39,672 bases of DNA from a virus. Position 1 is the stretch's first letter; each line of letters begins with the position of its first letter. Made by a program: the position numbers and the translations under genes. Below, one piece after another: positions 398 to 19,484 of the stretch. The DNA is taken from positions 1 through 39,672 of IMG/VR virus record IMGVR_UViG_3300045994_000090. One strand, given 5' to 3'. A model generated the notes under the pieces. It had not been told where the DNA came from and did not search any database. It worked only from the letters and a program-made list of their open reading frames with translations.

Positions 398-519
398 ATT
401 GAATGATAATGATCTAATCTATATCAATCTATCAATCAAAGATTATCATCTCTTAGAGATGATTCTCGATCTTTAAAAATCTAATCGATCAAAGATTATC
501 ATCTCTTAGAGATGATTCT
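398..519 (+). repeat. AT-rich leader with duplicated hairpins and one copy of a dispersed element
   Basis: A 32-base sequence beginning ATCAAAGATTATCATC is duplicated exactly at 435-466 and 488-519. Each copy holds the perfect stem ATCATCTC/GAGATGAT with a TTA loop. The run 398-460 (GATTGAATGATAAT, then CTATATCAATCTAT, then ATTATCATCTC) also matches the element found at 10451-10525 and, on the minus strand, at 19418-19478. No coding frame is seen between 1 and 559, so this is leader or regulatory DNA. Confidence 0.6.
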
Positions 520-559
520 TTAAAAAATCTAATCAATCTAATCCATCTGGAGAATAAAA

Positions 560-700
560 ATGATAACCGATAATCTAAAAAATAACGTCCTAGACATCGA
601 ATGCAGTATATTAGAGATCATTCATGAATATGATCTTAATCTGGACGAGATAAAGGAAGTTTTTCAATCTCTATTATATAGAGTTGAAGATAATGAATAA
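560..700 (+). CDS. small acidic hypothetical protein (46 aa)
   Basis: This is an open frame of 46 codons with a clear GGAG ribosome site (CTGGAGAATAAAA) before the ATG. It starts MITDNLKNNVLDIE and ends YRVEDNE. The product is acidic and probably helical, with no recognisable domain. It is the first gene after the leader and shares its leader wording (AATC repeats, then CTGGAGA) with the next gene at 801, which supports genuine translation. Being leftmost, it would be among the first genes expressed if this end enters the cell first; small host-takeover proteins often sit in such places, but that role is inference. Confidence 0.55.
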   Translation: MITDNLKNNVLDIECSILEIIHEYDLNLDEIKEVFQSLLYRVEDNE

Positions 701-743
701 ATAGAATAGAATAATCTCGGACCTCAGGGAAGAGGTCAAAACC

Positions 744-788
744 TAATCAATCTAATCAATCTAATCAATCTAATCAATCTAATCAATC
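744..788 (+). repeat. five tandem copies of TAATCAATC ahead of a gene
   Basis: Five uninterrupted 9-base units run directly into the ribosome-binding sequence TGGAGA of the gene at 801. A two-unit version occurs at 529-545 before the gene at 560. A 6-base hairpin (GACCTC/GAGGTC, 720-737) lies just upstream. The array gives an unstructured A/T-rich 5' leader, which may help translation, and its copy number could slip. Confidence 0.75.
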
Positions 789-800
789 TGGAGATACACC

Positions 801-1349
801 ATGACTACTGCAACTAACCAAAGAACAGCTTCATCCGAAGGCACTCAAGCTCACAACGATGCGGCCAATAAGAGAGCCAATATCAAGTATTGGACACATG
901 TCGAGGGGATGGATAGAGACGAGGCCAAGAAGAAGGTTGACCATCCTACCTACAAAATGATGACCAATGCAGAGATTAACAAGGCAATCAAGATTGAAGC
1001 CAAGAGACAAGAGACACTGAGAAAAAGAGCCGAACTTGACGCCAAGAAGAAAGCCGAAGAAGAGGCCGAACTCAAGAGACAAGAAGCGACACAGAAGCAA
1101 TGGGAGAACGACGCCAAGAAAGCTGAGGAGAAAGCGAAGACCGAATCCGAACCAAAGAAAATCAACCAAAGATCTATCGGCATATCGGTTAACGGAACTG
1201 AATACCCATCCATCTGCAAAGCCATGGCAGCTTATGGCATTCCAGACAAAGGAACCAAGAACTGGTTCAAGATCAGAGCGGCCTTGAAGAAGTCTAACGA
1301 GATAGACTTCGAATATGGAGGTGAGGTTTTCAAATTCATTCAATTATAA
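801..1349 (+). CDS. early protein: charged coiled coil plus NUMOD/IENR1-like C-terminal domain
   Basis: The product is 182 aa with a good GGAGA ribosome site. Residues about 60-120 form a Lys/Glu/Ala-rich helix typical of a coiled coil. Residues about 127-180 form a compact domain: VNGTEYPSICKAMAAYGI, then WFKIRAALKK, then FEYGGEVFKF. The pattern (short strand, Gly, Tyr, Ser-Ile, Ala-rich helix, Gly-Ile, second helix) resembles the small DNA-binding NUMOD1/IENR1 modules of homing endonucleases. A related domain ends the 274-aa protein at 5942, with matching Gly-x-x-Tyr, Gly-Ile and W-x-x-I-R positions. No nuclease domain is present. A DNA-binding early accessory protein is the best inference. 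The opposite strand is also open here, but it has no start context or domain. Confidence 0.8.
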   Translation: MTTATNQRTASSEGTQAHNDAANKRANIKYWTHVEGMDRDEAKKKVDHPTYKMMTNAEINKAIKIEAKRQETLRKRAELDAKKKAEEEAELKRQEATQKQWENDAKKAEEKAKTESEPKKINQRSIGISVNGTEYPSICKAMAAYGIPDKGTKNWFKIRAALKKSNEIDFEYGGEVFKFIQL

Positions 1350-1400
1350 TATAATCAATCAGAATCATCATTAAATATGATGATTCTGATTACCCTGTTA

Positions 1401-1463
1401 GACCCTGTCAAACGATAATCTATATCTTGATAGATCATTAAGATAGAAAATTATCGTTGACCC
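1401..1463 (+). repeat. dispersed inverted-repeat element, copy B
   Basis: The left arm GACCCTGTCAAACGATAAT (1401-1419) and right arm ATTATCGTTGACCC (1450-1463) share a perfect 9-bp inner stem (AACGATAAT/ATTATCGTT). It lies 36 bases before the gene at 1500. The arms resemble those at 10451-10525, which begin ATCGACCCTGTTGAATGATAAT-like sequence on the left. It may be an RNA-processing hairpin or a transcription signal. Confidence 0.6.
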
Positions 1464-1499
1464 AGTGAGATATTTTAACCAATCAATCGGAGCAATACC

Positions 1500-1664
1500 A
1501 TGAAGCTTACCAAGAAAAGTACGCAAGCCAAATGTGATAGACTGTACCAAAAAGCGGCAAAGTATGCAACTGAAGTAGACTGCGACGGTTGTCAACCTGC
1601 CATTATAGTGTCTTGGAACGCCAGAGGTATGCGCATAATGCGTAGAGTGTTTAGCATAGCCTAA
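1500..1664 (+). CDS. small basic hypothetical protein (54 aa)
   Basis: This frame has 54 codons, from MKLTKKSTQAKCDRLYQ to MRRVFSIA. The leader AATCGGAGCAATACC before the ATG is almost the same as that of the gene at 5575, which supports real translation. The protein is basic and has a CDGC pair at about residues 28-31. No family is recognised. Its stop overlaps the stop of the leftward gene at 1661-1972 by a few bases, so the two genes converge tail to tail. Confidence 0.65.
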   Translation: MKLTKKSTQAKCDRLYQKAAKYATEVDCDGCQPAIIVSWNARGMRIMRRVFSIA

Positions 1665-1972
1665 TCGCGCTTCATATCAATGATAAGAGTAGTAGCATTA
1701 CTACTCTTTTCTTTGATTTCTAACGTCCTCAAGTCAGGCATACATTTGCGCAATATAGTTGTGAATATATCTGCCTGGAACTTTAACCTAGGTAAGTCTT
1801 CGATGTCACAAGTCTTTGACTGCTTACCAAGATCGAGCAGACCAAGGATTGCTGCCTCAGGGTCGAGTTTTTCTCTTAACTCTTCAGCTCTTAAGCCAGC
1901 TTTTACTTTCTTTTCACTTAGTATCATTCCGTTGACTTTTCTCATAGTCTCCGGCCAATTGATAGTTTCCAT
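1661..1972 (-). CDS. possible small terminase subunit or regulator (103 aa)
   Basis: The product is 103 aa with a TTGGAGAA ribosome site seven bases before the ATG. It is mainly helical and charged. The C-terminal half (residues about 62-95) reads LPRLKFQADIFTTILRKCMPDLRTLE. This resembles the 'K-A-D-x-x-L-R-x-x-L-P-D-L-K-x-x-E' stretch seen in many putative small terminase subunits of short-tailed phages. No other small-terminase candidate lies beside the large terminase, which supports that reading. It is the only leftward gene in the left arm and faces away from the GTTCCC-rich region, so a divergent regulator binding that array is the main alternative. Assignment is tentative. Confidence 0.35.
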   Translation of the reverse strand: METINWPETMRKVNGMILSEKKVKAGLRAEELREKLDPEAAILGLLDLGKQSKTCDIEDLPRLKFQADIFTTILRKCMPDLRTLEIKEKSSNATTLIIDMKRD

Positions 1973-2011
1973 GATTTTTCTCCAAAATATGCCTAAAAAA
2001 TGTCTCGAATG

Positions 2012-2253
2012 GTTCCCCCCTGTTCCCCTATAAAGTCTATATAAATCAATGATTTAGATCATAGGGAACCGGGGAACCAGGTAAAAAAACTAGATCTATA
2101 TATTTATTTTAGATTTTAAATACCAAGATAGAGATAATAATGGTTCCCTTGGTTCCCTATCTATATTTCTTCTTATAAATCAATCACTTACATGGCTCAT
2201 AAAGGGGAACCATTACCAGTTCCCTACCAGTTCCCTCAGTTCCCTCAGTTCCC
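2012..2253. promoter_or_regulatory. array of eleven GTTCCC cores: candidate origin or operator
   Basis: GTTCCC occurs forward at 2012, 2022, 2143, 2152, 2219, 2230, 2239 and 2248, and inverted (GGGAAC) at 2064, 2072 and 2205. Neighbouring cores are usually 8-11 bases apart, about one helical turn, and the last four form a tight direct array (CAGTTCCCT). AT-rich DNA separates the groups. The array lies between divergent genes and just upstream of the primase/helicase and its promoter. Iteron-like spacing beside a replication gene suggests an origin; clustered operators controlling both directions are equally possible. Confidence 0.6.
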
Positions 2254-2317
2254 TACCAGCCATTTTCTCTATTCTGTATATACTATCACGTCTGGTACGA
2301 TAAATCAAGAAAAATAG

Positions 2318-2346
2318 TTGACATCAAGTCATAATTATGATATGAT
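2318..2346 (+). promoter_or_regulatory. consensus sigma70 promoter, main rightward unit
   Basis: TTGACA (2318-2323) is followed by 17 bases and TATGAT (2341-2346), an almost perfect sigma70 promoter. Transcription would start near 2353. The late promoter at 39411-39439 has the same two hexamers, the same spacing and the same TGATATGAT wording. It lies 65 bases downstream of the GTTCCC array, so proteins bound there could influence it. Confidence 0.85.
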
Positions 2347-2387
2347 TAACATGTTCTAAAAATCTATCTAATCAATAGGCTTTTAGA

Positions 2388-2468
2388 CCATCATTGGCTG
2401 ATTACCAATGGTGTTCCTCGTTGTACCACTGCCTGTTATATGCCATTCGCGTCGGTCTAGGCCGACGC
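2388..2468 (+). promoter_or_regulatory. structured leader before the primase gene
   Basis: Two hairpins lie between the promoter and the primase start: an interrupted one at 2388-2417 (ACCAT..CATTGG with CCAATGGT) and a GC-rich one at 2449-2468 (GCGTCGG/CCGACGC around TCTAGG). The second is unusually GC-rich for this genome. No T-run follows, so it is probably not a terminator; a translational control or RNA-stability role is possible. Confidence 0.4.
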
Positions 2469-2526
2469 ACTCTTGGTAGTGCAGTTGGTAAACGTAATAA
2501 TTAACAGGCGATTATTAGGCAACATA

Positions 2527-4542
2527 ATGGACCATGTAAATATAGATGATTTTTTACAAGCAATATTCAAAACACAACAACACCAAGCATTCACATGCGA
2601 CCAGAGATTTCGCTATATACCACCAGACAAGCTGAATCTGCGCCATTCATTATACTATGCAATATGTGCAGTAACTAACAATACTCGTAAAAACGACAAC
2701 TTCGTGAGCCTCAACGTTTTGGTATGCGATGACGTTGGTACTAAAGCAAAGACACCATCTCTACCTCCGTCTTATATAATAGAATCATCCCCAGATAACT
2801 TTCAATATGGCTACATACTCTCTGTGCCAGAGCAAGACCCACACAAAGCTAAAGAGCTAATAAACGGGCTAGTTAAATCAGGCTATACTGACGCCGGCGC
2901 TCACGGCATAGGCCGATTGGTACGTCTACCTGCCGGAACTAATGGTAAGCCTGGCAAAGAGGACTTTAAAGTACATCTGACTCATTGGGACCCAGTTACA
3001 ACATATTTATACCAAGACTTGCACTCGTTCTTCGTTGGTAAGCAACAGTCTAACAATAAAGATAGTTATGAGATACCGTCGCATATACCAAACGGTCAAC
3101 GTAACTCGGAACTAACTAGATTGTGTGGCTACTTGTTTGGTCAAGACCATACAACGATAGAGGTGACGGCCATGATGTTCACTTATAACGCAACACTATG
3201 CGATGAACCACTGTCAGCTGATGAGTTACAACGCATCATCGACTCTATTGGCACACGCAACGCTAGTAAGTACAAGGATGTAATCGAGAACATCTACCAC
3301 ATACGTGCCACTAACACATGGTTCGACTTCAACGACATGACTGAGCTCAGTGCTGACTCGTTGAACATCTCTAACATTAATGAATTTCCTGGCACTAAAG
3401 ACCATAAGCCTAAGCTAGCCACATGGTTACCTAAGCAGCAAGGGTTTAACCAGGTGGCTGACTACACTTGGTACCCAGTACCGCACCATCAGCAGAAGCG
3501 TACAGTGGTTCAGGATGGTCGTAAGCTGTTGAACACGTGGCACGGTTTCGCTATAGAGCCACGGACAGGTGACGTAGAGCCATGGCTAACCCACTTGGCT
3601 CACGTGGTACCTGAGGAGGACTATAGACGAGCTCTGCTCTGGTGGCTGGCCTTCACTATACAGTGTCCGGACAAGCGCACCAGTTGGCAACCCATCATCC
3701 TTGGTGTGTCCGGCGCTGGTAAGGACGCTCTGTTCAGGCCAGTGGCAACTATACTTGGGCCAGCTTACAAGATCATTGGTAACAAGGATATACAAGGAGA
3801 CTATGACGATGGGCTGTACCAGACCAAGCTACTGCAGATCAGCGAGGCGTCTGGCCTACGTGGTAAGGCTATTGACTTCTATAAGCGCATAACTGCAGCT
3901 GAGTCATCATCTATGCAGATGCTTAATATTAAGTGTAAGGGTAAAGTGATGCAGCACAACTTGTGCAACGTCTTGGTCATTACTAACAACATAGACGCTA
4001 TGAAGTTTAATAAGGACGAGCGTAGAGCCTTTGTACTAAGATCGCCCACAGTTATGACTGAAGATCAGCAGACTGCCTACTTTGACAAGTGGTTAGAGCT
4101 GAATGGTTCAGAGCACTTATTTGACTACTTGCTACGCTATGACTTAAGTGAGTATAAGCCCGGCATACGCCCATATCGCACTACACACTTTAATGAGCTA
4201 TTGAACGTGACACAATCAGATAACGAGATTAAGATAGAAGAGCTACTGGAGAGCTATGAGATAGCTCTACCCGAGCTAGTACGGCAAACACTTGGTGCTG
4301 ATGGTGACAAGTATGGTACTACCAAGATTATAGTATGGTTACAAGATAACGACTGGATCAGATGGGATAGGAGTGAGCAGTCCAGACGAATAAAGCGTAA
4401 GATTAATGGCGTGCACTGTGCGCCTAAGAGTCGCAATTGGTACGTTAAAAAGAACTCACAGTTTGATGGTAGCTCTCCTGCTGACATGTGTCGTGAGGTA
4501 GAGCGCGTAGAGGAGCTGTTCATGAAGCGTCATAAGTTTTAA
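2527..4542 (+). CDS. primase-polymerase/helicase fusion (AEP-like plus DUF5906-like)
   Basis: The product is 671 aa from the ATG at 2527. A TTG at 2473 would add 18 residues, but TTAGG just before 2527 and the MDHVNIDDF start favour the ATG. The N-terminal ~230 residues look like an archaeo-eukaryotic/RepB-type primase: an acidic CDDVGT motif, IIESSPDNFQYGYIL, and HGIGRLVRLPAGTN. The C-terminal part is a superfamily 3-like helicase with Walker A GVSGAGKDALF (about residue 393), Walker B LLQISEA (about 435), sensor VLVITNN (about 482) and DERRAF as a likely arginine finger. The layout resembles phage NrS-1-type PrimPol proteins. It would prime and unwind at the fork, working with the family A polymerase at 7702. 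Confidence 0.85.
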   Translation: MDHVNIDDFLQAIFKTQQHQAFTCDQRFRYIPPDKLNLRHSLYYAICAVTNNTRKNDNFVSLNVLVCDDVGTKAKTPSLPPSYIIESSPDNFQYGYILSVPEQDPHKAKELINGLVKSGYTDAGAHGIGRLVRLPAGTNGKPGKEDFKVHLTHWDPVTTYLYQDLHSFFVGKQQSNNKDSYEIPSHIPNGQRNSELTRLCGYLFGQDHTTIEVTAMMFTYNATLCDEPLSADELQRIIDSIGTRNASKYKDVIENIYHIRATNTWFDFNDMTELSADSLNISNINEFPGTKDHKPKLATWLPKQQGFNQVADYTWYPVPHHQQKRTVVQDGRKLLNTWHGFAIEPRTGDVEPWLTHLAHVVPEEDYRRALLWWLAFTIQCPDKRTSWQPIILGVSGAGKDALFRPVATILGPAYKIIGNKDIQGDYDDGLYQTKLLQISEASGLRGKAIDFYKRITAAESSSMQMLNIKCKGKVMQHNLCNVLVITNNIDAMKFNKDERRAFVLRSPTVMTEDQQTAYFDKWLELNGSEHLFDYLLRYDLSEYKPGIRPYRTTHFNELLNVTQSDNEIKIEELLESYEIALPELVRQTLGADGDKYGTTKIIVWLQDNDWIRWDRSEQSRRIKRKINGVHCAPKSRNWYVKKNSQFDGSSPADMCREVERVEELFMKRHKF

Positions 4543-4557
4543 TTTACGGAGAACGTA

Positions 4558-4710
4558 ATGAGTAAAGGTTCAAAACAACGTCCAACTAACAGAGAGAAGT
4601 ACAATGACAATTACGAACGCATCTTTGGCAATAAAGGCAATGATAAAGAGAGTAGAGAACTTGACACCGCCAGTGCAGGCAGGGTGAAGAATAAAGGTTT
4701 ACAAAAGTAA
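4558..4710 (+). CDS. small conserved-type phage protein (50 aa)
   Basis: This frame has 50 codons starting MSKGSKQRPTNREKYNDNYERIFG, with an ACGGAGAACGTA ribosome site. It begins 15 bases after the primase stop. The N-terminal wording (SKGSKQRP, then D/N-x-x-x-E-R-I-F-G) matches a short protein common in many unrelated phages, usually near replication genes; its function is unknown to me. It is hydrophilic and basic, without Cys or a membrane segment, and may be a small nucleic-acid or replication accessory protein. Confidence 0.75.
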   Translation: MSKGSKQRPTNREKYNDNYERIFGNKGNDKESRELDTASAGRVKNKGLQK

Positions 4711-4725
4711 TTTTGATGATATAAT
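4698..4725 (+). promoter_or_regulatory. extended -10 promoter before the DUF6948-like gene
   Basis: TTTACA (4698-4703), 16 bases, then TATAAT (4720-4725) preceded by TG at 4717-4718. It overlaps the 3' end of the small gene ending at 4710. The predicted start near 4732 falls on the first base of a perfect stem-loop. Confidence 0.65.
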
Positions 4726-4730
4726 ATATC

Positions 4731-4754
4731 AACACCAGAAATTCATCTGGTGTT
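4731..4754 (+). promoter_or_regulatory. 5'-terminal stem-loop of the transcript
   Basis: A perfect 9-bp stem AACACCAGA/TCTGGTGTT with loop AATTCA begins at about +1 of the preceding promoter. Stem-loops at the extreme 5' end often protect bacterial mRNA from decay. The ribosome site CTGGAGAG follows outside the hairpin. Confidence 0.55.
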
Positions 4755-4772
4755 AATTAACTGGAGAGTAAA

Positions 4773-5060
4773 ATGATTGGTAGATATTGTATGGTAAGAA
4801 CGCATTCAGCAGGTGTGTTTGCTGGAACTATTAAAGAACGTAATGGAAAAGAAGCGTTATTAACTGGTGCAAGACGTATATACTACTGGGATGGTGCTGC
4901 AACGCTATCACAACTTGCAACAGATGGTACAGCAAAGCCAGAAAACTGTAAGTTCCCTGTAGAAGTAGCTGAAGTATTGCTAACTGAAGTAATTGAGATT
5001 ATACCAATTACCGATAAGGCAAGTCTATCCATAAAGAGTGTACAAATATGGAAACTATAG
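4773..5060 (+). CDS. DUF6948-like phage protein (95 aa)
   Basis: The product is 95 aa with leader TTAACTGGAGAGTAAA before the ATG. It begins MIGRYCMVRTHSAGVFAGT, then KERNGKEALLTGARRIYYW, DGAATLSQLA and VLLTEVIEIIPITDKA. This matches a small beta-rich family frequent in phages, which I recall as DUF6948, of unknown function. Many relatives, as I remember them, carry a Gly-rich Asp/Ser/Tyr tail. Here the tail is a separate frame starting inside the last codons (5048). The two genes overlap by 13 bases, so they may be translationally coupled, or an ancestral fusion may have been split by a frame change. Confidence 0.8.
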   Translation: MIGRYCMVRTHSAGVFAGTIKERNGKEALLTGARRIYYWDGAATLSQLATDGTAKPENCKFPVEVAEVLLTEVIEIIPITDKASLSIKSVQIWKL

Positions 5061-5365
5061 CTAATAGCGATGGCGATGGCTATGGCGATGGCTATGGCCA
5101 TGGCTCTGGCTCTGGCTATGGCTATGGCTATAGCGATGGCGATGGCTATGGCTCTGGCTCTGGCTCTGGCTATGGCTCTGGCTATGGCTATGGCTATAGC
5201 GATGGCTCTGGCTCTGGCTATGGCTATGGCTCTGGCTATGGCGATGGCGATGGCTATGGCTCTGGCGATGGCGATGGCTATGGCTCTGGCTCTGGCTCTG
5301 GCGATGGCTATGGCGATGGCTCTGGCGATGGCGATGGCGATGGCGATGGCTATAGCGATGGCTAA
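5048..5365 (+). CDS. glycine dipeptide-repeat protein (DG/YG/SG) encoded by NNTGGC hexamers
   Basis: The product is 105 aa: a leader METIANS followed by 49 dipeptides, mostly Asp-Gly, Tyr-Gly or Ser-Gly, with one His-Gly and three Tyr-Ser. Every glycine is GGC, every Asp GAT and every Tyr TAT. Its ATG lies within the 3' end of the DUF6948-like gene in another frame, and no good ribosome site precedes it, so translation probably depends on coupling with that gene. Such a chain would be flexible and acidic. It could be the displaced C-terminal tail of the upstream family. Other frames and the opposite strand are also largely open because of the repeat, so coding in this frame is inferred from the clean start and stop and the resemblance to known tails. 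Confidence 0.6.
   Translation: METIANSDGDGYGDGYGHGSGSGYGYGYSDGDGYGSGSGSGYGSGYGYGYSDGSGSGYGYGSGYGDGDGYGSGDGDGYGSGSGSGDGYGDGSGDGDGDGDGYSDG
5066..5362 (+). repeat. degenerate hexanucleotide repeat, about 49 units
   Basis: The DNA is a run of NNTGGC units. The first two positions are almost always GA, TA or TC, with a single CA, and three units carry AGC instead of GGC. Positions 3-6 are otherwise constant. Such an array should be prone to slippage and recombination; unit-sized changes keep the frame, giving length variants. Confidence 0.9.
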
Positions 5366-5374
5366 ATAAAAATA

Positions 5375-5537
5375 TAGACACTAATTATAATTAGTGTCTA
5401 TCTTAGACTGCTCTACCAAGAACAGTCTAAGATAGGCAAGCAGGAGTCCTCGTAGTCCTAAAAAAGATACGAGTCAGTGCTATGTTCTAGCACTGTCAGT
5501 GGTATATAGTTGTTTATTTAAAGGGTAAACAGTTTGC
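5375..5537 (+). ncRNA. chain of perfect hairpins: candidate structured RNA or 3' UTR
   Basis: Consecutive stems are: 5375-5400 (12 bp, loop AT), 5398-5410 with 5423-5435 (13 bp, 12-base loop), 5449-5454 with 5468-5473 (6 bp), 5475-5482 with 5488-5495 (8 bp, loop TGTTC), and 5523-5537 (7 bp with one wobble). There is no coding frame. The first stem is followed on the minus strand by a T-rich run, so it could stop leftward transcription. No promoter is obvious directly upstream. It may be the 3' end of the DUF6948-like transcript, a processed small RNA, or a leader for the gene at 5575. Alternative pairings exist. Confidence 0.45.
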
Positions 5538-5574
5538 CTATCACCATTAACCACTAATAAATCGGAGCAATACA

Positions 5575-5811
5575 ATGAGCACTTCAAAAGCACTAAAACG
5601 TCAAAAACAAATCATCGAACACCTTACACACGTCTACGACGGTCCAGTGGACCCATTGGTATGTTGCTCAAGAGCATGCTACATGTCAGAACATACCAAG
5701 ACCAATGGCTTTACGGCTTACGAGATTGCTGACGCACTAGAGTCAGCTCTCACCAACGAAGGTTGGTTGGTAAAAGACCCACAGTCATTTAAAGGGAGCT
5801 ACAATTCATAA
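5575..5811 (+). CDS. hypothetical protein (78 aa)
   Basis: The product is 78 aa, with leader AATCGGAGCAATACA that closely matches the one before the gene at 1500. Sequence features are a basic helical start (STSKALKRQKQIIEHL), a Cys pair (LVCCSRACYM, about residues 29-37), and a helical segment FTAYEIADALESALTNEGW that could be a small helix-turn-helix-like unit. I do not recognise a family. It follows the hairpin-rich intergenic region, which would be its 5' leader if transcription reads through. Confidence 0.7.
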   Translation: MSTSKALKRQKQIIEHLTHVYDGPVDPLVCCSRACYMSEHTKTNGFTAYEIADALESALTNEGWLVKDPQSFKGSYNS

Positions 5812-5858
5812 GTCATTGATTCTTATAGATATTTATTTTCAAAATATCGAAAATAAAG

Positions 5859-5887
5859 GTATACATTCAGTCACATTCATATATAAT
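5859..5887 (+). promoter_or_regulatory. possible promoter before the 274-aa gene
   Basis: TATAAT at 5882-5887 lies 55 bases before the ATG at 5942. The region one spacer upstream (5859-5864, GTATAC) is a poor -35. The call rests mainly on the -10 and on the 130-base AT-rich gap. Confidence 0.3.
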
Positions 5888-5941
5888 AGAATCTCATTAT
5901 AAATGAATTAACCAACCACTACAACTAACCAGGAGGCCATC

Positions 5942-6766
5942 ATGGCTATTAAATCAAAAAAAGACAAATTCGCTTCTGAAGAAGTAACAGTTGAAGCTGT
6001 AAACGAAGTCCAAAATGACCAACCAGAAGTTGAGTCGACCGCATTGACTGAAGAGCAAATAGCTCTGAACGTTGCCATCAACGACGGCACTCTGTCAGCA
6101 CTGAGAGATGCAGAGACTACCTCTGGAGCTCTTGTAACTCTTATCACCATCTATATGGCACTACAAGGCGCTATCGGCGATGAAGCTGGTGCAACTGTAA
6201 ATGCCCTGGCTAACCTGAAGGCATTCCAACCTGCCAAAGTAAAGGCTGCCAAAGTGCCAAAGGAAAAAGCCTTCAATGAAGTTAAGGCGTTGAAAGACGC
6301 GATGGCTGATGAACACGATGCTGTTGCGGCATTGGACATCTTGGTCACCGACGAGCGCATTAGCGAAGACTTGAAGAACGCTATCATTACTTACACCACG
6401 TTATTGCACATTGACGGCATTCCACAAGCTATCACTGATGGTGCATGGGAAACTCTTGGTAATTTTGGTCGTAAAGGCAAGTCCGGCACACGTGTCGCAT
6501 CTGGCCCAAGAGTTGCATTCGGTATCGAAGTCGATGGCGTGGTATATGGCGCATTAACTGCAGCCATTAAGGCTCAAGGTATTACCAAAGAGATTACTGG
6601 CGATAATAAGTCTGATGACGCCGACATTGCATGGCGCACCATTCGTCCTAAGTTGTTGAAAGATGGCGTTGCAGAGTACAATGGTGTGACTTACACCAAA
6701 ACTGATGCGCCTGTAACTGCTGTTGCAGAGCCAGAAGCACCTGCTGAAGAAGAACCTACTCAGTAA
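5942..6766 (+). CDS. abundant-type early protein with NUMOD/IENR1-like domain and acidic tail
   Basis: The product is 274 aa, with the strongest ribosome site noticed in the window (AGGAGG, 5 bases from the ATG), which suggests high expression. The N-terminus is charged, the middle (residues about 35-170) is Ala-rich and helical, and residues about 187-245 form a small domain (FGIEVDGVVYGALTAAIKAQ, then IAWRTIRPKLLKDG, then EYNGVTYTKT) that resembles the C-terminus of the 182-aa protein at 801. The last residues are acidic and Pro-rich (EPEAPAEEEPTQ), like the tails of single-stranded-DNA-binding proteins. It stands just before another replication-associated protein and the DNA polymerase. 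A DNA-binding replication accessory role is inferred; I cannot name a family. Confidence 0.8.
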   Translation: MAIKSKKDKFASEEVTVEAVNEVQNDQPEVESTALTEEQIALNVAINDGTLSALRDAETTSGALVTLITIYMALQGAIGDEAGATVNALANLKAFQPAKVKAAKVPKEKAFNEVKALKDAMADEHDAVAALDILVTDERISEDLKNAIITYTTLLHIDGIPQAITDGAWETLGNFGRKGKSGTRVASGPRVAFGIEVDGVVYGALTAAIKAQGITKEITGDNKSDDADIAWRTIRPKLLKDGVAEYNGVTYTKTDAPVTAVAEPEAPAEEEPTQ

Positions 6767-10435: not shown

Positions 10436-10450
10436 ATCTATAGTTAAAAT

Positions 10451-10525
10451 ATCGACCCTGTTGAATGATAATTTTTAATCCATATCAATCTATAGATTAT
10501 ATTATTATCGTTCAACAGGGTCGAT
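10451..10525 (+). repeat. dispersed inverted-repeat element, copy C (22-bp stem)
   Basis: The left arm 10451-10472 (ATCGACCCTGTTGAATGATA...) pairs with 10504-10525 over 22 positions with one G-U pair; the loop is 31 bases and holds ATATCAATCTAT. It lies 25 bases before the VRR-NUC gene. The right-arm wording (AACAGGGTCGATTCTCGT) recurs exactly at 19467-19484. A stem of about two helical turns would suit RNase III processing; no T-run follows, so a simple terminator is unlikely. Confidence 0.75.
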
Positions 10526-10549
10526 TCTCGTAGACGAGGGTTATGATTT

Positions 10550-13355: not shown

Positions 13356-13864
13356 AGACCGTGCAAGATTTTTACATGCAAATGCTAAATCTTGCACACA
13401 TTAAAAGATACTCGGTAATACCAAGAATACATGAAGAAAGTATTGCCGAGCATTCATTTTTTGTGGCGGCTATAGTAATGAAGTTATATGACGAGTACGA
13501 ATTTAGAGTAGGCCATGCAACTTGTATGGCTATACTTCATGATTGGACTGAGTCATATACCGATGATATTACCGTAATGACCAAGCGTAAGTATCCAGAG
13601 ATCGCCGAAGTTATTGAGCAAGTAGAGTCAAAGATAGCTAAGGTAGAGCTATCACCAATGGCATACGAGCTCTGGAAAGAGTACAAAGATGGTAGTACAG
13701 TAGAGTCAAAGATAGTAAAATATGCAGATACTATTCAGGTTATTCAATATGCACAAGGCGAAGTTAACCTTGGTAACAGTGCATACATGAAGAGTGTGGT
13801 AGATGATGCAACTTACAGAAGCATAAAACTTAAGGAGCTACTAAATGAGTATAAGAGGTTATGA
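13352..13864 (+). CDS. HD-domain phosphohydrolase, YfbR-like 5'-nucleotidase
   Basis: The product is 170 aa. HD motifs are visible: R25-x-H27, EHS at 33-35 (His34), LHDWTE (His63, Asp64), TDDI (Asp71/72) and VKYADTIQ (Asp about 125). The arrangement R..H..S-I-A-E-H-S followed by H-D-x-x-E-x-x-x-x-D is that of YfbR-type deoxynucleoside 5'-monophosphatases. It would dephosphorylate deoxynucleotides, possibly shaping dNTP pools beside the ThyX pathway. DatZ-type dATPases of 2-aminoadenine phages share the fold, but no PurZ is present. It overlaps both neighbouring genes. Confidence 0.85.
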   Translation: MKTVQDFYMQMLNLAHIKRYSVIPRIHEESIAEHSFFVAAIVMKLYDEYEFRVGHATCMAILHDWTESYTDDITVMTKRKYPEIAEVIEQVESKIAKVELSPMAYELWKEYKDGSTVESKIVKYADTIQVIQYAQGEVNLGNSAYMKSVVDDATYRSIKLKELLNEYKRL

Positions 13865-14111
13865 CTGGGAAGAGTTCTCAGAAGTTGTGCATGAGCACAT
13901 TGAAACATACACCATACCGCAGTACGGCGATAAAGGCGAAGACATAGCTTCAGAGTACAGTGTTGAAGACTGTTATCGCAACATGAAACGCTATCTTGCC
14001 AGAGCTGGTAAGAATAGCAGAGATGGTCAAGAATCACTTGACTTAATTAAAATAGCACACTACGCCCAAATGGCGTTCACACTTATCGGAGAGCAAAATG
14101 CCAAAAAATAA
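13845..14111 (+). CDS. conserved-type phage protein (88 aa), unknown function
   Basis: The product is 88 aa. Notable stretches are TYTIPQYGDKGEDIASEYS, CYRNMKRYLARAGKNSR and LDLIKIAHYAQMA. The pattern (C-x-x-N-x-x-R-Y-x-x-R-x-G-K-N-x-R then D-L-x-K-I-A-H-Y) is one I associate with a small family often found beside ThyX genes in phages, loosely like DUF3310 proteins. Function is unknown. It overlaps the HD gene by 20 bases and the ThyX gene by 14, so it is tightly tied to nucleotide metabolism. Confidence 0.75.
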   Translation: MSIRGYDWEEFSEVVHEHIETYTIPQYGDKGEDIASEYSVEDCYRNMKRYLARAGKNSRDGQESLDLIKIAHYAQMAFTLIGEQNAKK

Positions 14112-14994
14112 CAATACAGTTGTAGAACAAATGCATACGACACTTAAATTTGACGAACCTGGCCATTTAGAGTTTGTTGAGCAACTTAACAATATCGACG
14201 TTAAAATTGTAGGCGCACCATCAGTGGCAGAATTTAGAAAGACTATATCAGTCTTTATGATGAACACTTGGAATGACCATTTGCATTTTGAGTTCAGCGA
14301 AGAAGCTATTGACCAGTGCATAAAAGACTTATTTGCTGGCAAGATATTACCAACTGGTATGGAAACAATTGGTATTACATGGTCAGTTAGTGGTCTTAAC
14401 TTGATTGACACCACTCACTTAATACGTCATAGATTGTTTTCATTCTCTGCACAAACACATGCCGATCGCGACATGAGGGACGATATGTGCGTAGTAGCAC
14501 CCGGCATCATAGCCAATGAAGACTTTTATGACCGCTATCAATCTATTGTTCGTAACGCACACCAACTGTACATTGACATGATGGACTCTGGTAGAGTTAA
14601 TTGTCTTGACGCCAGAACCATCATGCCACGTTGCATGGACCATTTCTATATTACCAGATGTTGCATCAAAGACTTGGTTAGCTATTGTCAGATGCGCGCA
14701 GATGAGCAAATACAGACAACTGTAGACAACGTTGTGGCTATGAAACTATGGCTGGAAGTATTGAAACTATATCCGTTCTTAAAAGGGTTAGTGGACTTCA
14801 ACAAACCGGATGCTTACTATGTAAGCCAATGCTCTGCAGGTAAGACTAACATCTTTCCGCCGAATAGAAAGAACGACTCGTTTGAGTGGGCTGATGGGCA
14901 GTTTGTACATGCCATTCATCGCGATAGTTTCCCTGGTGGTGACGTCTATCTAAAGCTTAGAGCAGAATTATTAGCTCAAATAGACGCTATTTAA
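14098..14994 (+). CDS. thyX: FAD-dependent thymidylate synthase ThyX, divergent phage type
   Basis: The product is 298 aa. It would methylate dUMP to dTMP using FAD, NADPH and methylene-tetrahydrofolate. The signature appears as LIRHRLFSFSAQTHADRDM (RHR at 110-112). Canonical ThyX has RHR-x7-S; here the eighth position is Thr120, as in a phage branch with AQ-x-x-x-DRDM. The C-terminal part (LDARTIMPRCM, then LVSYCQMRADEQIQ) matches the ThyX substrate-binding segment. Upstream and downstream genes supply its dUMP: dUTPase-like at 15032 and dCMP deaminase at 15417. Confidence 0.87.
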   Translation: MPKNNNTVVEQMHTTLKFDEPGHLEFVEQLNNIDVKIVGAPSVAEFRKTISVFMMNTWNDHLHFEFSEEAIDQCIKDLFAGKILPTGMETIGITWSVSGLNLIDTTHLIRHRLFSFSAQTHADRDMRDDMCVVAPGIIANEDFYDRYQSIVRNAHQLYIDMMDSGRVNCLDARTIMPRCMDHFYITRCCIKDLVSYCQMRADEQIQTTVDNVVAMKLWLEVLKLYPFLKGLVDFNKPDAYYVSQCSAGKTNIFPPNRKNDSFEWADGQFVHAIHRDSFPGGDVYLKLRAELLAQIDAI

Positions 14995-14999
14995 CTGCA

Positions 15000-15021
15000 A
15001 TGGCCAAGGATGGCTATTTTT
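15000..15021 (+). terminator. short hairpin with T-run, AGGA loop
   Basis: ATGGCCA/TGGCTAT with loop AGGA is followed by TTTTT and then the TAGGAG ribosome site of the next gene. Nearly the same sequence occurs on the minus strand below the capsid gene (33096-33116). It is probably a weak terminator or attenuator between genes. Confidence 0.5.
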
Positions 15022-15031
15022 AGGAGTTGCT

Positions 15032-15427
15032 ATGAGACAGATATTGGCAATGCAATTAGAGTTACAACAGCTTATTGCATCAAAAAGTAACAAGATAGAT
15101 CACAGTCCTTACGCTAATGAAGGTGGTTTAACTAATGGCGATATGGTGCATTATATAAAAGACCAGGCGTACTTCTTACAACAAGAAATAACAGAATTGG
15201 CAGAAGAGTTTGGTGGTAAAGATGTTCTTAAGCCATGGAAGGCCAATTATGTCAATGTAACATCTGCTATAGCCAGTGTTACAAATCAGACAAAGTCAGA
15301 AGCCATTGATGCTCTATGCTTCTGTATGAACATTTGCTTGGCTGCCGGTATTACTCCAGAAAACATAATGGACGAATATTCTAAAGTTTGGCTTAAAAAC
15401 ATAAATAGGCAGCACGATGGCTACTAG
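15032..15427 (+). CDS. all-alpha NTP pyrophosphatase, dimeric dUTPase/MazG-like
   Basis: The product is 131 aa, all helical. Metal-site motifs are FLQQEITELAEE (E-x-x-E-x-x-E/E) and KSEAIDALCFC (E-x-x-D), and the end KVWLKNINRQHDGY matches the closing motif of dimeric dUTPase_2 proteins (K-x-x-x-N-x-x-R-x-x-x-G-Y). It would hydrolyse dUTP (or a related dNTP) to the monophosphate, feeding dUMP to ThyX and keeping uracil out of DNA. MazG-type pyrophosphatase activity on other nucleotides is the alternative. Its last 11 bases overlap the dCMP deaminase gene. Confidence 0.8.
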   Translation: MRQILAMQLELQQLIASKSNKIDHSPYANEGGLTNGDMVHYIKDQAYFLQQEITELAEEFGGKDVLKPWKANYVNVTSAIASVTNQTKSEAIDALCFCMNICLAAGITPENIMDEYSKVWLKNINRQHDGY

Positions 15428-15869
15428 ACCTAGTAAACATTTCACATTTTTAGTAATGGCCCACCATCTGTCAAAGCAAAGTACTTGTAGTCGCAGGCAA
15501 GTAGGAGCTATATTTGTCAATGATAGGAGCCACATTGTTGCATCAGGCTATAATGGTGCACCGTACGGATTTGGTCATTGCATAGACAACCCATGTAATG
15601 GTGCGCTATTATCAAGTGGTACTGGGCTGGCAGAATGCGGTGCCGTACATGCAGAACAAAATGCACTAATGCAATGTAGTGACGTACATAGTATATACTC
15701 AGCATACTTGACATGTTCACCGTGCATGCATTGCCTAAAGATGCTACTTAATACTGGTTGTAGAAACATATACTTCTTAGAAGAGTACGCAGATAGTGAA
15801 AAATGTAAGCAAATGTGGGAAAACGCTGGCAGACTTTGGCACAACTCGAGTAATATAGTTTACAAGTAG
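15417..15869 (+). CDS. deoxycytidylate (dCMP) deaminase
   Basis: The product is 150 aa. The zinc deaminase motifs are CGAVHAEQNA (His78, Glu80) and SPCMHC (Cys103, Cys106). SRRQVGAIFV and ASGYNGAPYG are typical of dCMP deaminases (ComEB-like). It converts dCMP to dUMP, the substrate of ThyX. The gene overlaps the dUTPase-like gene upstream, so the two dUMP-producing enzymes are probably translated together. Confidence 0.93.
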   Translation: MATRPSKHFTFLVMAHHLSKQSTCSRRQVGAIFVNDRSHIVASGYNGAPYGFGHCIDNPCNGALLSSGTGLAECGAVHAEQNALMQCSDVHSIYSAYLTCSPCMHCLKMLLNTGCRNIYFLEEYADSEKCKQMWENAGRLWHNSSNIVYK

Positions 15870-15887
15870 TATTTTAATTGATATAAT
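15859..15887 (+). promoter_or_regulatory. sigma70 promoter with extended -10
   Basis: TTTACA (15859-15864), 17 bases, then TATAAT (15882-15887) with TG at 15879-15880. The -35 overlaps the end of the dCMP deaminase gene; the ATG of the next gene is at 15915. Confidence 0.7.
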
Positions 15888-15914
15888 GTACATTCTAATC
15901 AATCGGAGAACCAC

Positions 15915-16154
15915 ATGCAAACATTAATAGTTATAGACAGTGTAGAGCTAGATGTAGAATTTAACTATAGACCAGGTAAACCGGCAAAGGTAGACGGACC
16001 ATGGGAAACGTCCTATCCTGCACAAGACGCTGAGGTAGAGCTAATTTTGGTACAAGTTAATGGCATTAATATTTTTGAACTGCTTAGTGAGAAAGCACTG
16101 ATGCAAATAGAGTCGTACATAGAAGAGAACGTAGATGGCATTGTACGCAATTGA
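15915..16154 (+). CDS. conserved-type phage protein (79 aa)
   Basis: The product is 79 aa with ribosome site TCGGAGAACCAC. The sequence VELDVEFNYRPGKPAKVDGP followed by VELILVQVNGINIFELLSE is typical of a small beta-rich protein common in phages, whose function is not known. It has its own promoter. Its 3' end overlaps the next small gene by 20 bases. Confidence 0.75.
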   Translation: MQTLIVIDSVELDVEFNYRPGKPAKVDGPWETSYPAQDAEVELILVQVNGINIFELLSEKALMQIESYIEENVDGIVRN

Positions 16155-16296
16155 TTCTCGTTCATGCAAAGTACCAGTTTACGTACCAAACATATATGTG
16201 AATTGGTTTATAAGAGGTAAGTTCGATAGACTTGAGTTAAGATTAAAGTATATGAAATTACTAGATAGTGCAATAAATGCTGGTTGTCGATTCTAG
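16135..16296 (+). CDS. small basic hypothetical protein (53 aa)
   Basis: This frame has 53 codons from MALYAIDSRSCKVPVYVPN to SAINAGCRF. It starts inside the 3' end of the preceding gene, with AGAGAAC as a modest ribosome site. The product has two Cys and a basic helical C-terminal half. It ends shortly before a strong terminator, consistent with being the last gene of this unit. No family is recognised. Confidence 0.6.
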   Translation: MALYAIDSRSCKVPVYVPNIYVNWFIRGKFDRLELRLKYMKLLDSAINAGCRF

Positions 16297-16322
16297 CTCC
16301 TATAAAAATCGACACATTCTAT

Positions 16323-16350
16323 GGCAGGCCTAATTAGCCTGCCTCTTTTT
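16323..16350 (+). terminator. rho-independent terminator
   Basis: GGCAGGC (16323-16329) and GCCTGCC (16337-16343) form a perfect GC-rich 7-bp stem with loop CTAATTA, followed by TCTTTTT. It is among the clearest terminators in the window and separates the nucleotide unit from the ligase unit. Confidence 0.9.
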
Positions 16351-16366
16351 ATTTATAAGGACTAAA

Positions 16367-17413
16367 ATGACAACATTATATAAAATAACAAACGTAGGAC
16401 AAGTATACATATGGACTATAGCGGCTAACGATGCTATTATACATATCAGATACGGCATAGTTAATGGCGCCATGCAAGACAGATTTGAGCACATTGAAGT
16501 AAACCAATCTGGCAGAACTCTCTCAGAACAAGTAAGATTACGAGTACAATCAAGAGTTAATCGTAGACTTGACCAAGGTTACAGATATAGCATCGAAGAA
16601 GCTAGATCAAACGTTGGTAATAATGCGATGGACTTACAACGACCAATGCTGGCCAAGCAGTTTGATAAAATAAGAGCTATTGACTACAGTACTTGCTTTG
16701 TACAAAAGAAGTACAATGGCCATCGTTGCCTTATAACCAACCAAGGTGAAGGCAACATTGCCTATTCGCGCAATGGCAAGCCGATAACTTCAGTTGACCA
16801 CATACTAAAAGGTATAGAGTTGGAAGAAGGTGAAACTCTTGATGGTGAGCTATACATCCATGACACACCATTGCAACAACTTGGTAGTCTTATACGTCGT
16901 AAGCAACAAGACAGTGCACTGCTACAGTACGTAGTGTATGACTCTATGATAGATGTGCCATACGCTTATAGGTTAGACTATATTAATAGTCTATCATTTA
17001 GCAAAGACATATCAGTTGCACCAACAGAGTCATACTCACATAAAGTATCTTTGAAAGACCAGCTAGATGAGTCTATTGCTGATGGCTATGAAGGCCTTAT
17101 ACTTCGGCATGGCAACTATGGCTATGAAGCTGGCAAGAGAAGTTCATCACTGGTTAAAGTAAAGAAGTGCATGGATGAAGAATTTTTGGTTGTCAATATA
17201 GAACCATCCAAAGATGGTTGGGCTATACTGGTATGTCATTTAGACAATGGTACTTTTAAAGTACCTGCGCCGGGCACGATGGAAAACAAGATGCAAATAT
17301 ACAAGAACCGCCATGATTACATTGGCAGATTTATAACTGTAGAGTTCTTTGAGTGGACTGATGGCAAAGTGCCATTCCATCCTAGAGCAACCAACTGGAG
17401 AGACGTAGAATGA
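16367..17413 (+). CDS. ATP-dependent DNA ligase with N-terminal WGR-like domain
   Basis: The product is 348 aa. It seals nicks in replicating DNA. Residues about 1-85 resemble a WGR domain (TLYKITNVGQVYIWTI, IIHIRYGIVNG). The adenylation domain has the KxxG-type motif CFVQKKYNGHRC (Lys about 114), then LDGELYIHD, EGLILRHG and LVKVKK; the C-terminal OB part ends with FFEWTDGKVPFHPR. WGR fusion to phage ligases is known in the family. The gene follows a terminator with a ribosome site TAAGGA; a promoter for it is not obvious. It overlaps the next gene by 4 bases. Confidence 0.9.
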   Translation: MTTLYKITNVGQVYIWTIAANDAIIHIRYGIVNGAMQDRFEHIEVNQSGRTLSEQVRLRVQSRVNRRLDQGYRYSIEEARSNVGNNAMDLQRPMLAKQFDKIRAIDYSTCFVQKKYNGHRCLITNQGEGNIAYSRNGKPITSVDHILKGIELEEGETLDGELYIHDTPLQQLGSLIRRKQQDSALLQYVVYDSMIDVPYAYRLDYINSLSFSKDISVAPTESYSHKVSLKDQLDESIADGYEGLILRHGNYGYEAGKRSSSLVKVKKCMDEEFLVVNIEPSKDGWAILVCHLDNGTFKVPAPGTMENKMQIYKNRHDYIGRFITVEFFEWTDGKVPFHPRATNWRDVE

Positions 17414-17637
17414 GTACTGTAATATTCGACTTTATAATGGCAGCTATAGTAGTTAGCATCTTATATGTAACATTATTTCATGGCAAAACCATGTCACCAC
17501 CGACACCACCTGCAGTAGAGCAGAAGGCAATGCCATGTGTTGGCACTGGCACAGATTACTTGGTATCAGTTGAAATGACTAAGTTCCTAGAGAACGAAGG
17601 CCACGGTAAAGTATTTGACGAAGGGGATATGGAATGA
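17410..17637 (+). CDS. small single-pass membrane protein (75 aa)
   Basis: The product is 75 aa. An N-terminal hydrophobic segment (about residues 5-23, IFDFIMAAIVVSILYVTLF) is followed by a short Pro-rich linker and an acidic C-terminus. This suggests an inner-membrane anchor with a soluble tail. It overlaps the ligase stop (ATGA) and the following micro-gene (ATGA). No family is recognised. Confidence 0.65.
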   Translation: MSTVIFDFIMAAIVVSILYVTLFHGKTMSPPTPPAVEQKAMPCVGTGTDYLVSVEMTKFLENEGHGKVFDEGDME

Positions 17638-17732
17638 TTTCACAATATAAACTTGGTATAGCTGATTATATTGCTACTGCCGTACTAATCATAGCACCAT
17701 TGGCTGTTGTGATTTATTTATTAACTAATTAA
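17634..17732 (+). CDS. 32-aa single transmembrane peptide
   Basis: This tiny frame starts MISQYKLGIADYIATAVLII and ends VVIYLLTN. About 20 residues form a transmembrane helix. It begins at an ATGA overlap with the stop of the 75-aa membrane protein and is followed closely by the gene at 17742. Coupling plus a coherent membrane segment support a real gene, though the length makes this uncertain. Confidence 0.5.
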   Translation: MISQYKLGIADYIATAVLIIAPLAVVIYLLTN

Positions 17733-17741
17733 GGAATTGTT

Positions 17742-18212
17742 ATGTACACCGAAAAAGAACACTTGTTAAAAGACTTGCGACCCAATAAAGAGCCTACCGG
17801 AGGATTGCACCAACCAAATGTGGCCGATACATTTAAAGTAGAGCCAGTGGCACAAAGTGGCATATATGATACTTTAATATCAACTTCTGCTGAGGCGCAA
17901 GAAGTGGCTAGTGACTTCGCTAAATGCATATCGACAGATGAATACAACGAAGCTTTACATATGCAGACAGGTTATTCGCATACAGCCAAACAAAGTGAGG
18001 CCGGCCTACCTAATCACATCAGAGAATTGGTAAACATGGCTAAGAAGGTGCAGAAACTTGAGGCTGCCTACAGGGAATGTTGCCAAATGAACACTTGGAC
18101 GGAAGAGTCGCCAGGTAGTTGGGCACATAGAAAGGTAGATTTTGATTTACTTGAACGTGATTTGCTTGCTGCAAGAATACTTTACTGTAAACTAATAAAG
18201 GAAGCGCCATGA
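17742..18212 (+). CDS. hypothetical protein (156 aa)
   Basis: The product is 156 aa with ribosome site TAAGGAATTGTT. The N-terminal third is polar (PNKEPTGGLHQPNVAD), and the rest is helical, with a charged helix ELVNMAKKVQKLEAAYREC and a final helix DLLERDLLAARILYCKL. Some phage proteins of nucleoside-kinase regions share the 'W-T-E-E-S..G-x-W' wording, but I cannot place it in a family. It overlaps the next gene by 4 bases. Confidence 0.65.
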   Translation: MYTEKEHLLKDLRPNKEPTGGLHQPNVADTFKVEPVAQSGIYDTLISTSAEAQEVASDFAKCISTDEYNEALHMQTGYSHTAKQSEAGLPNHIRELVNMAKKVQKLEAAYRECCQMNTWTEESPGSWAHRKVDFDLLERDLLAARILYCKLIKEAP

Positions 18213-18724
18213 GCAAAAGATTCGGACGAAATCAGAAACGTAAATTAAAGGCTGAACTGGCAGAATCGAATAAAGCTCTGGTTAATCAGATAAATACTTC
18301 ACAGGCTATGCAAAAAGAACGGCGATGTTTAGAGCGCGACATTAAAAATATAATAGAGCTTGTGGAGCGTTTCTGTTACAATTCTGCAGCCATACCACCA
18401 AAACTGACCGGGCATACAAGTCATAGTTCATACAGACTTCCTATGGGCGGTGTCACAACTTTATATGAACAAGTAACAAGCTTTATTCCAACAGACGATA
18501 TGGGCATATTGCGAACAATAGACGTGTATAAATTGGATATGTACATAGCAGACTATATAGGGGAGTTCTCTAAGTGTGTACATCTGAAGTTCGGTGATAT
18601 AGCTAAAAACAGCTATGCAATGTCTATGGACGCATTTAGCAGAGCACCAGCAGATTATGTGGCGCATAACATAACGGTGAAGCTGGTAACAGACTTGCAG
18701 AAGACTATTGGTAAGGAACGATGA
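18209..18724 (+). CDS. hypothetical protein (171 aa)
   Basis: The product is 171 aa. The N-terminus is basic and coiled-coil-like (FGRNQKRKLKAELAESNKAL), followed by RRCLERDIKNIIELVERFCY. The remainder looks globular. No motif or family is recognised. It overlaps both neighbours by 4 bases, so it belongs to a coupled run of unknown genes (17742-19035) at the end of the rightward arm. Confidence 0.65.
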   Translation: MSKRFGRNQKRKLKAELAESNKALVNQINTSQAMQKERRCLERDIKNIIELVERFCYNSAAIPPKLTGHTSHSSYRLPMGGVTTLYEQVTSFIPTDDMGILRTIDVYKLDMYIADYIGEFSKCVHLKFGDIAKNSYAMSMDAFSRAPADYVAHNITVKLVTDLQKTIGKER

Positions 18725-19035
18725 TAGTGACAAGACTGGCAGAAGACTTATATGCTGCAACTCAAGATGGCAAAAAGTGTGTGGCAACCACTAGACTGGT
18801 TGCTATGCAAATGATGTCAAGATGGTTAATTATGGAGAAGACTATGGAAGAACTGATAGAGGCCGCTAAACTGGTAGAGTTTGCAAGAAATGCAGTAGTA
18901 GAGTGCATGCCTAGGAGTACGTTCAATATGACCATAGAAGAACGTGATAGACTAGATGCTAGGTATGTCAGTGCCGTAGGTGCGTATAATGAAGCACGAA
19001 GGCAATACGATGAACTAGTAGCAATTTGCTTGTAA
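18721..19035 (+). CDS. hypothetical helical protein (104 aa)
   Basis: The product is 104 aa and almost entirely helical: MQMMSRWLIMEKTMEELIEA, then ERDRLDARYVSAVGAYNEAR. It is the last gene of the rightward arm and is followed within 10 bases by a terminator. The family is unknown. Confidence 0.65.
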   Translation: MIVTRLAEDLYAATQDGKKCVATTRLVAMQMMSRWLIMEKTMEELIEAAKLVEFARNAVVECMPRSTFNMTIEERDRLDARYVSAVGAYNEARRQYDELVAICL

Positions 19036-19044
19036 TTAGAAACT

Positions 19045-19069
19045 AGCCCAGATCAATCTCTGGGCTTTT
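19045..19069 (+). terminator. terminator between converging arms
   Basis: AGCCCAGA (19045-19052) pairs with TCTGGGCT (19059-19066), then TTTA. It closes the rightward arm. Read leftward, the same stem is followed by AGTTTCT, so it may also help stop late transcripts. Confidence 0.85.
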
Positions 19070-19178
19070 ATTGCCTATCATCTTTAGAATTTTGCATTGA
19101 ACTAAGACTTACTCCACCTATGGCAAATGGTGGAGTACCATGTTTTAACGTGTGCAGTAAAAAATCTATATAGTTCAT
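19068..19178 (-). CDS. possible small gene at the end of the late unit (36 aa)
   Basis: This frame has 36 codons (MNYIDFLLHTLKHGTPPFAI to NSKDDRQ) and starts 14 bases below the stop of the 62-aa gene. No Shine-Dalgarno sequence is visible, only an A-rich leader, and the stop lies in the terminator stem. It is plausible as the last late gene because of position and composition, but may be chance. Confidence 0.35.
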   Translation of the reverse strand: MNYIDFLLHTLKHGTPPFAIGGVSLSSMQNSKDDRQ

Positions 19179-19191
19179 ACTTTTACTTTTA

Positions 19192-19380
19192 CTAAGTGCG
19201 TCGTTTGTCAATAACTCCCATCATTGGTGCTTGTAAGGCAAGTCCTGCCATTTTACCAGGGTCTTGCATATCTTGCATACTTGGTATATTATGATTAATA
19301 TTACTTTTAAGTTGTTGCCATTGATTATTAAGCGGACTACCTTTAGCAACTAACTGCAAATAATCGTCTATTGCACTCAT
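19192..19380 (-). CDS. small late hypothetical protein (62 aa)
   Basis: The product is 62 aa with an ATGGAAATTATCTT leader. It is polar with a helical first half (MSAIDDYLQLVAKGSPLNNQ) and a Met-rich end (MAGLALQAPMMGVIDKRRT). It follows copy D of the dispersed hairpin element, which lies between it and the long ejection-type gene. A minor virion or end-of-operon protein is possible; no family is recognised. Confidence 0.55.
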   Translation of the reverse strand: MSAIDDYLQLVAKGSPLNNQWQQLKSNINHNIPSMQDMQDPGKMAGLALQAPMMGVIDKRRT

Positions 19381-19417
19381 AAGATAATTTCCATTGTTAA
19401 AATATTCGATTTAAGAG

Positions 19418-19484
19418 ATGATAATTATTATCTGATAGATTGATATAGATCATATAATTATCATTCAACAGGGTCGATTCTCGT
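19418..19484 (-). repeat. dispersed inverted-repeat element, copy D
   Basis: On the minus strand this reads CGACCCTGTTGAATGATAAT, then CTATATCAATCTAT, then AATTATCATCTC. That matches copy C (10451-10525) in its left part and copy A (398-460) in the rest. The inner stem is 10 bp (19418-19427 with 19455-19464); the outer arm is decayed. It lies in the 139-base gap before the 62-aa gene, in the same orientation relative to transcription as the other copies. Confidence 0.7.

Follow-up and report, generated by a model that had tools for sequence, protein, structure and literature searches.

A family of repeated hairpins located between genes is a real, apparently undescribed element, and the family belongs to one group of podovirus-like phages. 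The window, which is the whole stretch of DNA analysed (an entire viral record, G000, of 39,672 bases), carries four hairpins that had been listed as related in a first-pass annotation; E3 and E4 are indeed strong copies of one element, and E2 and E1 are weaker. The working form of the element may be a hairpin in mRNA, acting as a processing or end-protecting stem, and a probability of roughly 40% is assigned to this reading.

Protein scans of the window place terminase, portal, scaffold and capsid genes on the - strand and primase, polymerase, nuclease, helicase and ligase genes on the + strand. Identity to the closest portal relatives with annotation is only about 50%, and a sequence search with positions 1-25000 found no near match among annotated phages. 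A distant search of annotated phages with E3 returned two matches only, at E 0.4, and the covariance model built for the element (R1) gave one chance-level match in the two best annotated portal relatives, MW900438 and KM058087. No Rfam family matched the window, G002 or G028 at the gathering cut-off, and a search of genome contigs yielded no host. Related contigs were gathered with portal, polymerase, endonuclease and ligase queries and with DNA patterns. Those collected by the pattern TAAAATATYNGATTTAAG were mostly chance finds (only L276 scored well among 77 loci tested), and exact 19-base arm matches in the unrelated contigs L005, L008 and L006 had no second arm and were taken as chance. 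Coordinates of the elements and of neighbouring features are collected in Table 1.

Table 1. Hairpin elements of the window and features beside them (bits are scores under model R1; z is relative to shuffled sequences).
Feature	Position	Strand	Remarks
E1, weak copy	383..469		leader 5' of the first + genes; 29.2 (-) and 28.5 (+) bits
Promoter-like site TTTACG-16-TATAAT	301..328	+	5' of E1 and the first + genes; 10/12, TG before second hexamer; consensus match only
E2, weaker copy	1392..1477	-	TTAAAATAT-N14-GATAATTTT; 28.1 bits; fold z -4.31
E3, best copy	10445..10531	+	TAAAATAT, apical stem-loop, 3' ATTCTCGT; 97.9 bits (one of the model's own sequences)
E3 arms, 22 nt	10451-10472 / 10504-10525	+	one G-U pair
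Endonuclease / Holliday junction resolvase-like gene, 93 aa	10550..10831	+	PHROGs: phrog_93 6.5e-24, phrog_5702 3.3e-6
Terminator-like hairpin, ordinary	19045..19066	+	after the last + gene, 5' of E4
E4	19398..19484	+	TAAAATAT-N14-GATAAT, inverted loop, 3' ATTCTCGT; 72.3 bits (one of the model's own sequences)

The best copy, E3, lies between an 89-aa gene and the endonuclease/resolvase-like gene, and its hairpin is far beyond chance. Its fold of -38.3 kcal/mol has a z of -10.95, the arms bear out the 22-bp stem that had been ascribed to the best copy, and inverted repeats as strong as E3 were absent from 15 shuffles (top shuffled score 12 vs 19). The gene behind it had been labelled VRR-NUC; no Pfam match was found for its product, and PHROGs points to an endonuclease or Holliday junction resolvase. 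The arm GACCCTGTTGAATGATAAT, searched as 19 bases with at most 3 mismatches, has four matches in the window vs 0.00 in shuffles. It had been taken to be shared by the hairpins, and it does form both arms of E3 and a single arm in each of E4 and E2; E4 and E1 each have an arm of a second type, AAGAGATGATAAT. Similarly, the supposedly common core CTATATCAATCTAT is exact in E4 and E1 (419-432 in the latter) and has one mismatch in E3, and E2 does not contain it within 3 mismatches.

The complete unit spans about 86 bases and consists of AAAATAT, 14 variable bases, GATAAT, a small apical stem-loop, ATT(A/T)TC (with variants), a complementary stretch of variable bases and usually ATYCTCGT. The blocks AAAATAT and GATAAT thus stand at a fixed spacing with the 14 bases between them free, and the window copies E2, E3 and E4 share a sharp 5' edge, GTTAAAATAT. 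In the window, AAAATAT-N14-GATAAT has exactly three occurrences, on the - strand in E2 and on the + strand in E3 and E4, vs 0.00 expected, a count that is not an independent test because the signature was picked after the alignment had been viewed. The stronger evidence is that, record by record, it is confined to element sites: there are 15 occurrences in 9 of 31 related phage records, every one inside such an element, and the reversed control has 0 matches in the 31. Under model R1, records carry one to four copies, those at the E3 place scoring 74-98 bits and those at the E4 place 53-75 bits; most of the sequences scored, or near-identical ones, were built into the model and are high by construction, and the E4 copies of G007, G026 and G027 (53-63 bits) lie outside it. 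The model and the simple signature together make a searchable element family in uncultured phages, one with no Rfam match.

The signature and the model concur on orientation, with E3 and E4 on the + strand and E2 on the - strand. E4 had previously been placed on the - strand; the model puts it on + at its tabulated score, and in G001, a near-identical record with the same E4 sequence, the best - match to it reaches 19.4 bits. E2 had been placed on +, yet the model prefers -, with 17.6 bits on + for the G001 copy. The model does not orient E1. The inference that each hairpin stands upstream of a gene in transcription sense therefore fails for E4 and E2, and it survives for E3 and possibly E1.

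E4 lies between - strand genes of 760 aa and 62 aa and is antisense to both. Its fold on the + strand has a z of only -1.73, and its outer stem pairs poorly because the two arms are of different types; the E4 copies of G002 and G003 have the same poorly paired outer stem. Because of the ordinary terminator-like hairpin ahead of it (Table 1), it is doubtful that + transcription passes through E4 here. E2 is antisense to the 54-aa gene behind it; it has the exact signature at 1450-1476 (-) and folds better than shuffles, and it lacks the CTCGT end as well as the core. A separate hairpin with 15-base arms (AATCAGAATCATCAT / ATGATGATTCTGATT) adjoins E2 at 1356-1392 and is terminator-like on the - strand, so that only a short - transcript would be expected from a start in E2. 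E1, part of which is repeated at 481-525, has a fold z of -0.96, indistinguishable from shuffles, and its membership in the family stays doubtful. Counterparts of E1 and E2 were not seen at the syntenic places in G002 and G003.

Relatives keep hairpins of this family at two homologous places, which supports a common conserved hairpin. At the E3 place, 5' of the endonuclease/resolvase-like gene, a hairpin of the same layout is present in the window and in eight related records, among which gene identity at the protein level falls to 39-62%. The arms of these relatives are mostly unlike those of the window in sequence, with pairing kept (window ACCCTGTTGAATGATAAT / ATTATCGTTCAACAGGGT vs G027 GATTTAAGGAGAGATAAT / ATTTTCTCTTCTCAGATC). 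The E4 place, beside the end of the tail operon, is occupied in the window, G002 and G003 and, judged by position, in G007, G026 and G027. In E3 of most relatives and in E4 of G002 and G003, the element is in sense and starts precisely where the preceding + gene has its stop codon; in the latter two this gene is the last + gene, where the - operon meets it. In the window, G007, G026 and G027, E4 lies antisense to the genes beside it; the window and G007 have at this place a - strand gene whose product starts MSA(I/F)DDYLQL.

Downstream of the capsid gene's terminator is a third site, where G002, G003, G007, L026 and L155 have a longer hairpin with the motif CCCTGTTGAATGATAAT near its top; the hairpin is absent from L066, G004 and G027. 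The arms measure 26-27 bases in G002 (L108:1369-1470) and G003 (L110:3011-3116). Capsid proteins are near-identical between phages with and without this copy, and for that reason a capsid-protein tree did not resolve whether the copy was gained or lost.

Compensatory changes in relatives had been proposed as the check on the structure, and they were found. In an alignment of ten copies, both sides have changed in 13 of the 17 stem pairs, pairing holds in 88.2% of cells, and the covariation score is 0.527 vs 0.243±0.034 (sd) for shuffled and 0.05-0.20 for slid alignments, values that rest on few independent lineages and that template switching can mimic. The structural claim is thus upheld for E3 and, across relatives, for E4. 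Counts of G-U vs A-C pairs, which are not independent, stand at 12 to 8 for E3, at 12 to 4 for E4 of the window, G002 and G003, and at 3 to 6 for E4 of G007, G026 and G027; they favour no clear strand.

The manner in which the copies differ argues against accepting compensatory change as proof that the element works as RNA. Arm sequences change as blocks between copies, and the loop has two forms that replace each other at one and the same place, TCAATC and its exact reverse complement, GATTGA. Inverting only these six loop bases raises the identity of E4 in G027 and G026 from 62 to 68 of 71, and that of E3 in G007 and G002 from 55 to 61 of 86 positions. Within G027, E3 and E4 are identical at 69 of 71 positions, as against 62 of 71 for E4 between G027 and G026, and so exchange between copies also occurs. 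An apparent loop inversion at any single place may accordingly be such an exchange instead, but the family requires at least one loop inversion. With the loop present in either orientation, there is no loop sequence that is read strand-specifically.

Template switching between inverted repeats is reported to lead to homogenised arms and an inverted spacer (PMC8604942), and a second study reports that it is able to generate paired stems and preserve them, with compensatory changes of several bases at once (PMC8794818). The covariation is thus attainable by template switching in DNA alone; it therefore shows that the palindrome is maintained and does not by itself show RNA selection. The systems described there, together with the minute inversions of plastid hairpins, resemble the present one in having arms alike in blocks and a spacer inverted between homologous copies, but they concern yeast genes, RNA genes and plastids rather than a repeated phage element. 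Template switching explains the changes of the element and not its job. In this natural case strong covariation is not to be read directly as RNA selection, because its copies also carry arm replacements and loop inversions, the marks of template switching, and this small phage element makes the rule that covariation means functional RNA testable.

The preferred reading is that selection keeps the folded stem and that the working form would most likely be an RNA hairpin in mRNA. The RNase III sites of phage T7 are intergenic hairpins with a lower stem, an internal loop and an upper stem; their sequence is variable and there are several per genome. The element is likewise two-part, with a long lower stem, an internal loop and a short upper stem, and lies between genes, but unlike those sites it has the conserved AAAATAT-N14-GATAAT, inverted loops and some antisense copies; the likeness is one of layout. 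By analogy, the stem could be a cutting site for a double-strand RNase of the RNase III type, or alternatively it could act as a block shielding the ends of transcripts. Within the + operon, at E3, it would separate the nuclease-helicase part from the preceding part, and at E4 it would set or protect the end where the + and - operons meet. Errors of DNA copying, namely template switching at the palindrome and exchange between copies, would rewrite the element, with the versions that still pair surviving. Persistence at E3 in the window and eight records, together with a start that coincides with a stop codon in most relatives, favours a kept signal, for which processing or end protection by an mRNA hairpin would be the simplest use. 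Several observations stand against an mRNA hairpin: E2 and several E4 copies are antisense to genes, the loop is inverted, and the outer stem of E4 is poor in the window, G002 and G003. A weak relative of the element in G005 (L115:17456-17540, 34.5 bits) lies at a junction of + and - genes and has a terminator-like upper stem (AAAAGCTATAC-GTTT-GTATAGCTTTTTTTTT), which fits a role at transcript ends.

REP and MITE-like repeats are short, palindromic, intergenic and variable in copy number, and the element shares all of these properties. A jobless repeat of this kind, spread by recombination or by a transposase encoded elsewhere, is an unlikely explanation, although much of the distribution agrees with it. 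The unit is discrete and sharp at its 5' edge, it varies in copies per record, and its capsid-gene copy comes and goes among phages with near-identical capsids. The earlier suggestion of a small spreading repeat has support, as regards spread within genomes, from that variable copy, from the missing E1 and E2 counterparts in G002 and G003, and from the exchange that left E3 and E4 of G027 nearly identical. However, the element differs from such repeats in having few copies and two fixed places over deep divergence, and E3 in particular is kept where an idle palindrome, being easily deleted, should not persist. No transposase was present among the proteins scanned, and the empty capsid-gene sites also fit deletion between the short direct repeats ATTTTAT and TTATAT.

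It is also unlikely, to much the same degree, that the element acts as a DNA-level site, i.e. a double-stranded or cruciform palindrome with a part in replication, recombination or packaging, where a phage protein would bind or cut it. The protein could be the resolvase-like nuclease encoded beside E3. A fixed spacing of two blocks around 14 free bases would suit such a site, as would the occurrence of the element in sense, antisense and convergent settings, and loop inversion and block rewriting show that the palindrome acts as a hairpin at the DNA level. On the other hand, five records (G031, G024, G019, G022 and G023) have a relative of the nuclease gene and no element, which rules out strict linkage of the two, and with only two conserved places the shared orientation may be inheritance. 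A combined form, a new regulatory element of phages, is a little less probable again: the pairing and the two spaced blocks would be kept, arms and loop would be rewritten by template switching, so that DNA copying itself would maintain the hairpin, and the reader, whether an RNase or the resolvase-like nuclease, would recognise shape and not sequence.

A promoter is improbable, whether of the host sigma-70 type with an atypical -35 or of the phage middle class. Its hexamers would be TTAAAA or ATAAAA and, 17 bases on, GATAAT; E2 (-) and E4 (+) of the window score 9/12 with a spacer of 17, E3 has the same TTAAAA-17-GATAAT, and the invariant blocks and spacing with a free spacer are what a promoter would have. 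But the direction is antisense at E2 and E4, the -35 is poor in relatives (ATAAAA, TAAAAA), conservation extends into the spacer (TAT), and the complementarity of the spacer to the downstream arm is left unexplained. Chance or plain AT-rich repeats are very improbable: region 1-1500 is rich in short AATCTAATC repeats and E1 alone folds no better than shuffles, but for E3 and E4 chance is refuted by the zero expectation for arm and signature, the homologous placement and the covariation.

Two known kinds of element were considered and rejected. Intrinsic terminators have a G+C-rich stem followed by a T run, and a terminator scan covering E2 and E4 listed neither; it did list short stems in the E1 region on the - strand. 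Integron attC sites are imperfect palindromes near stop codons with boxes RYYYAAC ... GTTRRRY at their outer ends, and GTTGAAT / ATTCAAC of window E3 fit the GTTRRRY / RYYYAAC boxes, but the box order is inverted in E3 and, in the aligned copies inspected, the arm type of G007, G026, G027 and G029 has no boxes.

Other repeats were seen in these genomes. An open frame of 105 aa at 5048-5365 (+) encodes almost only Gly, Asp, Ser and Tyr from a 6-base repeat in 49 copies, and a relative of it was not found in the six genomes compared. Just 5' of a 182-aa gene, at 743-789, CTAATCAAT occurs five times in tandem, and similar AATCTAATC repeats precede the counterpart of this gene in G002, G003 and G007. 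Both ends of the record (1-119 and 39508-39627) carry a tandem repeat of 40-41 bases that includes a T run (TTTTTTTTGAGTTGCATAAAATTTACAGTCTAAAACCATT), so that the genome probably closes through the repeat. Similar T-run repeats (TTTTTTTTGARATTGCATTTTATAT) are located close to the terminase gene in G002, G003, G007 and G027, and are possible origin or packaging repeats.
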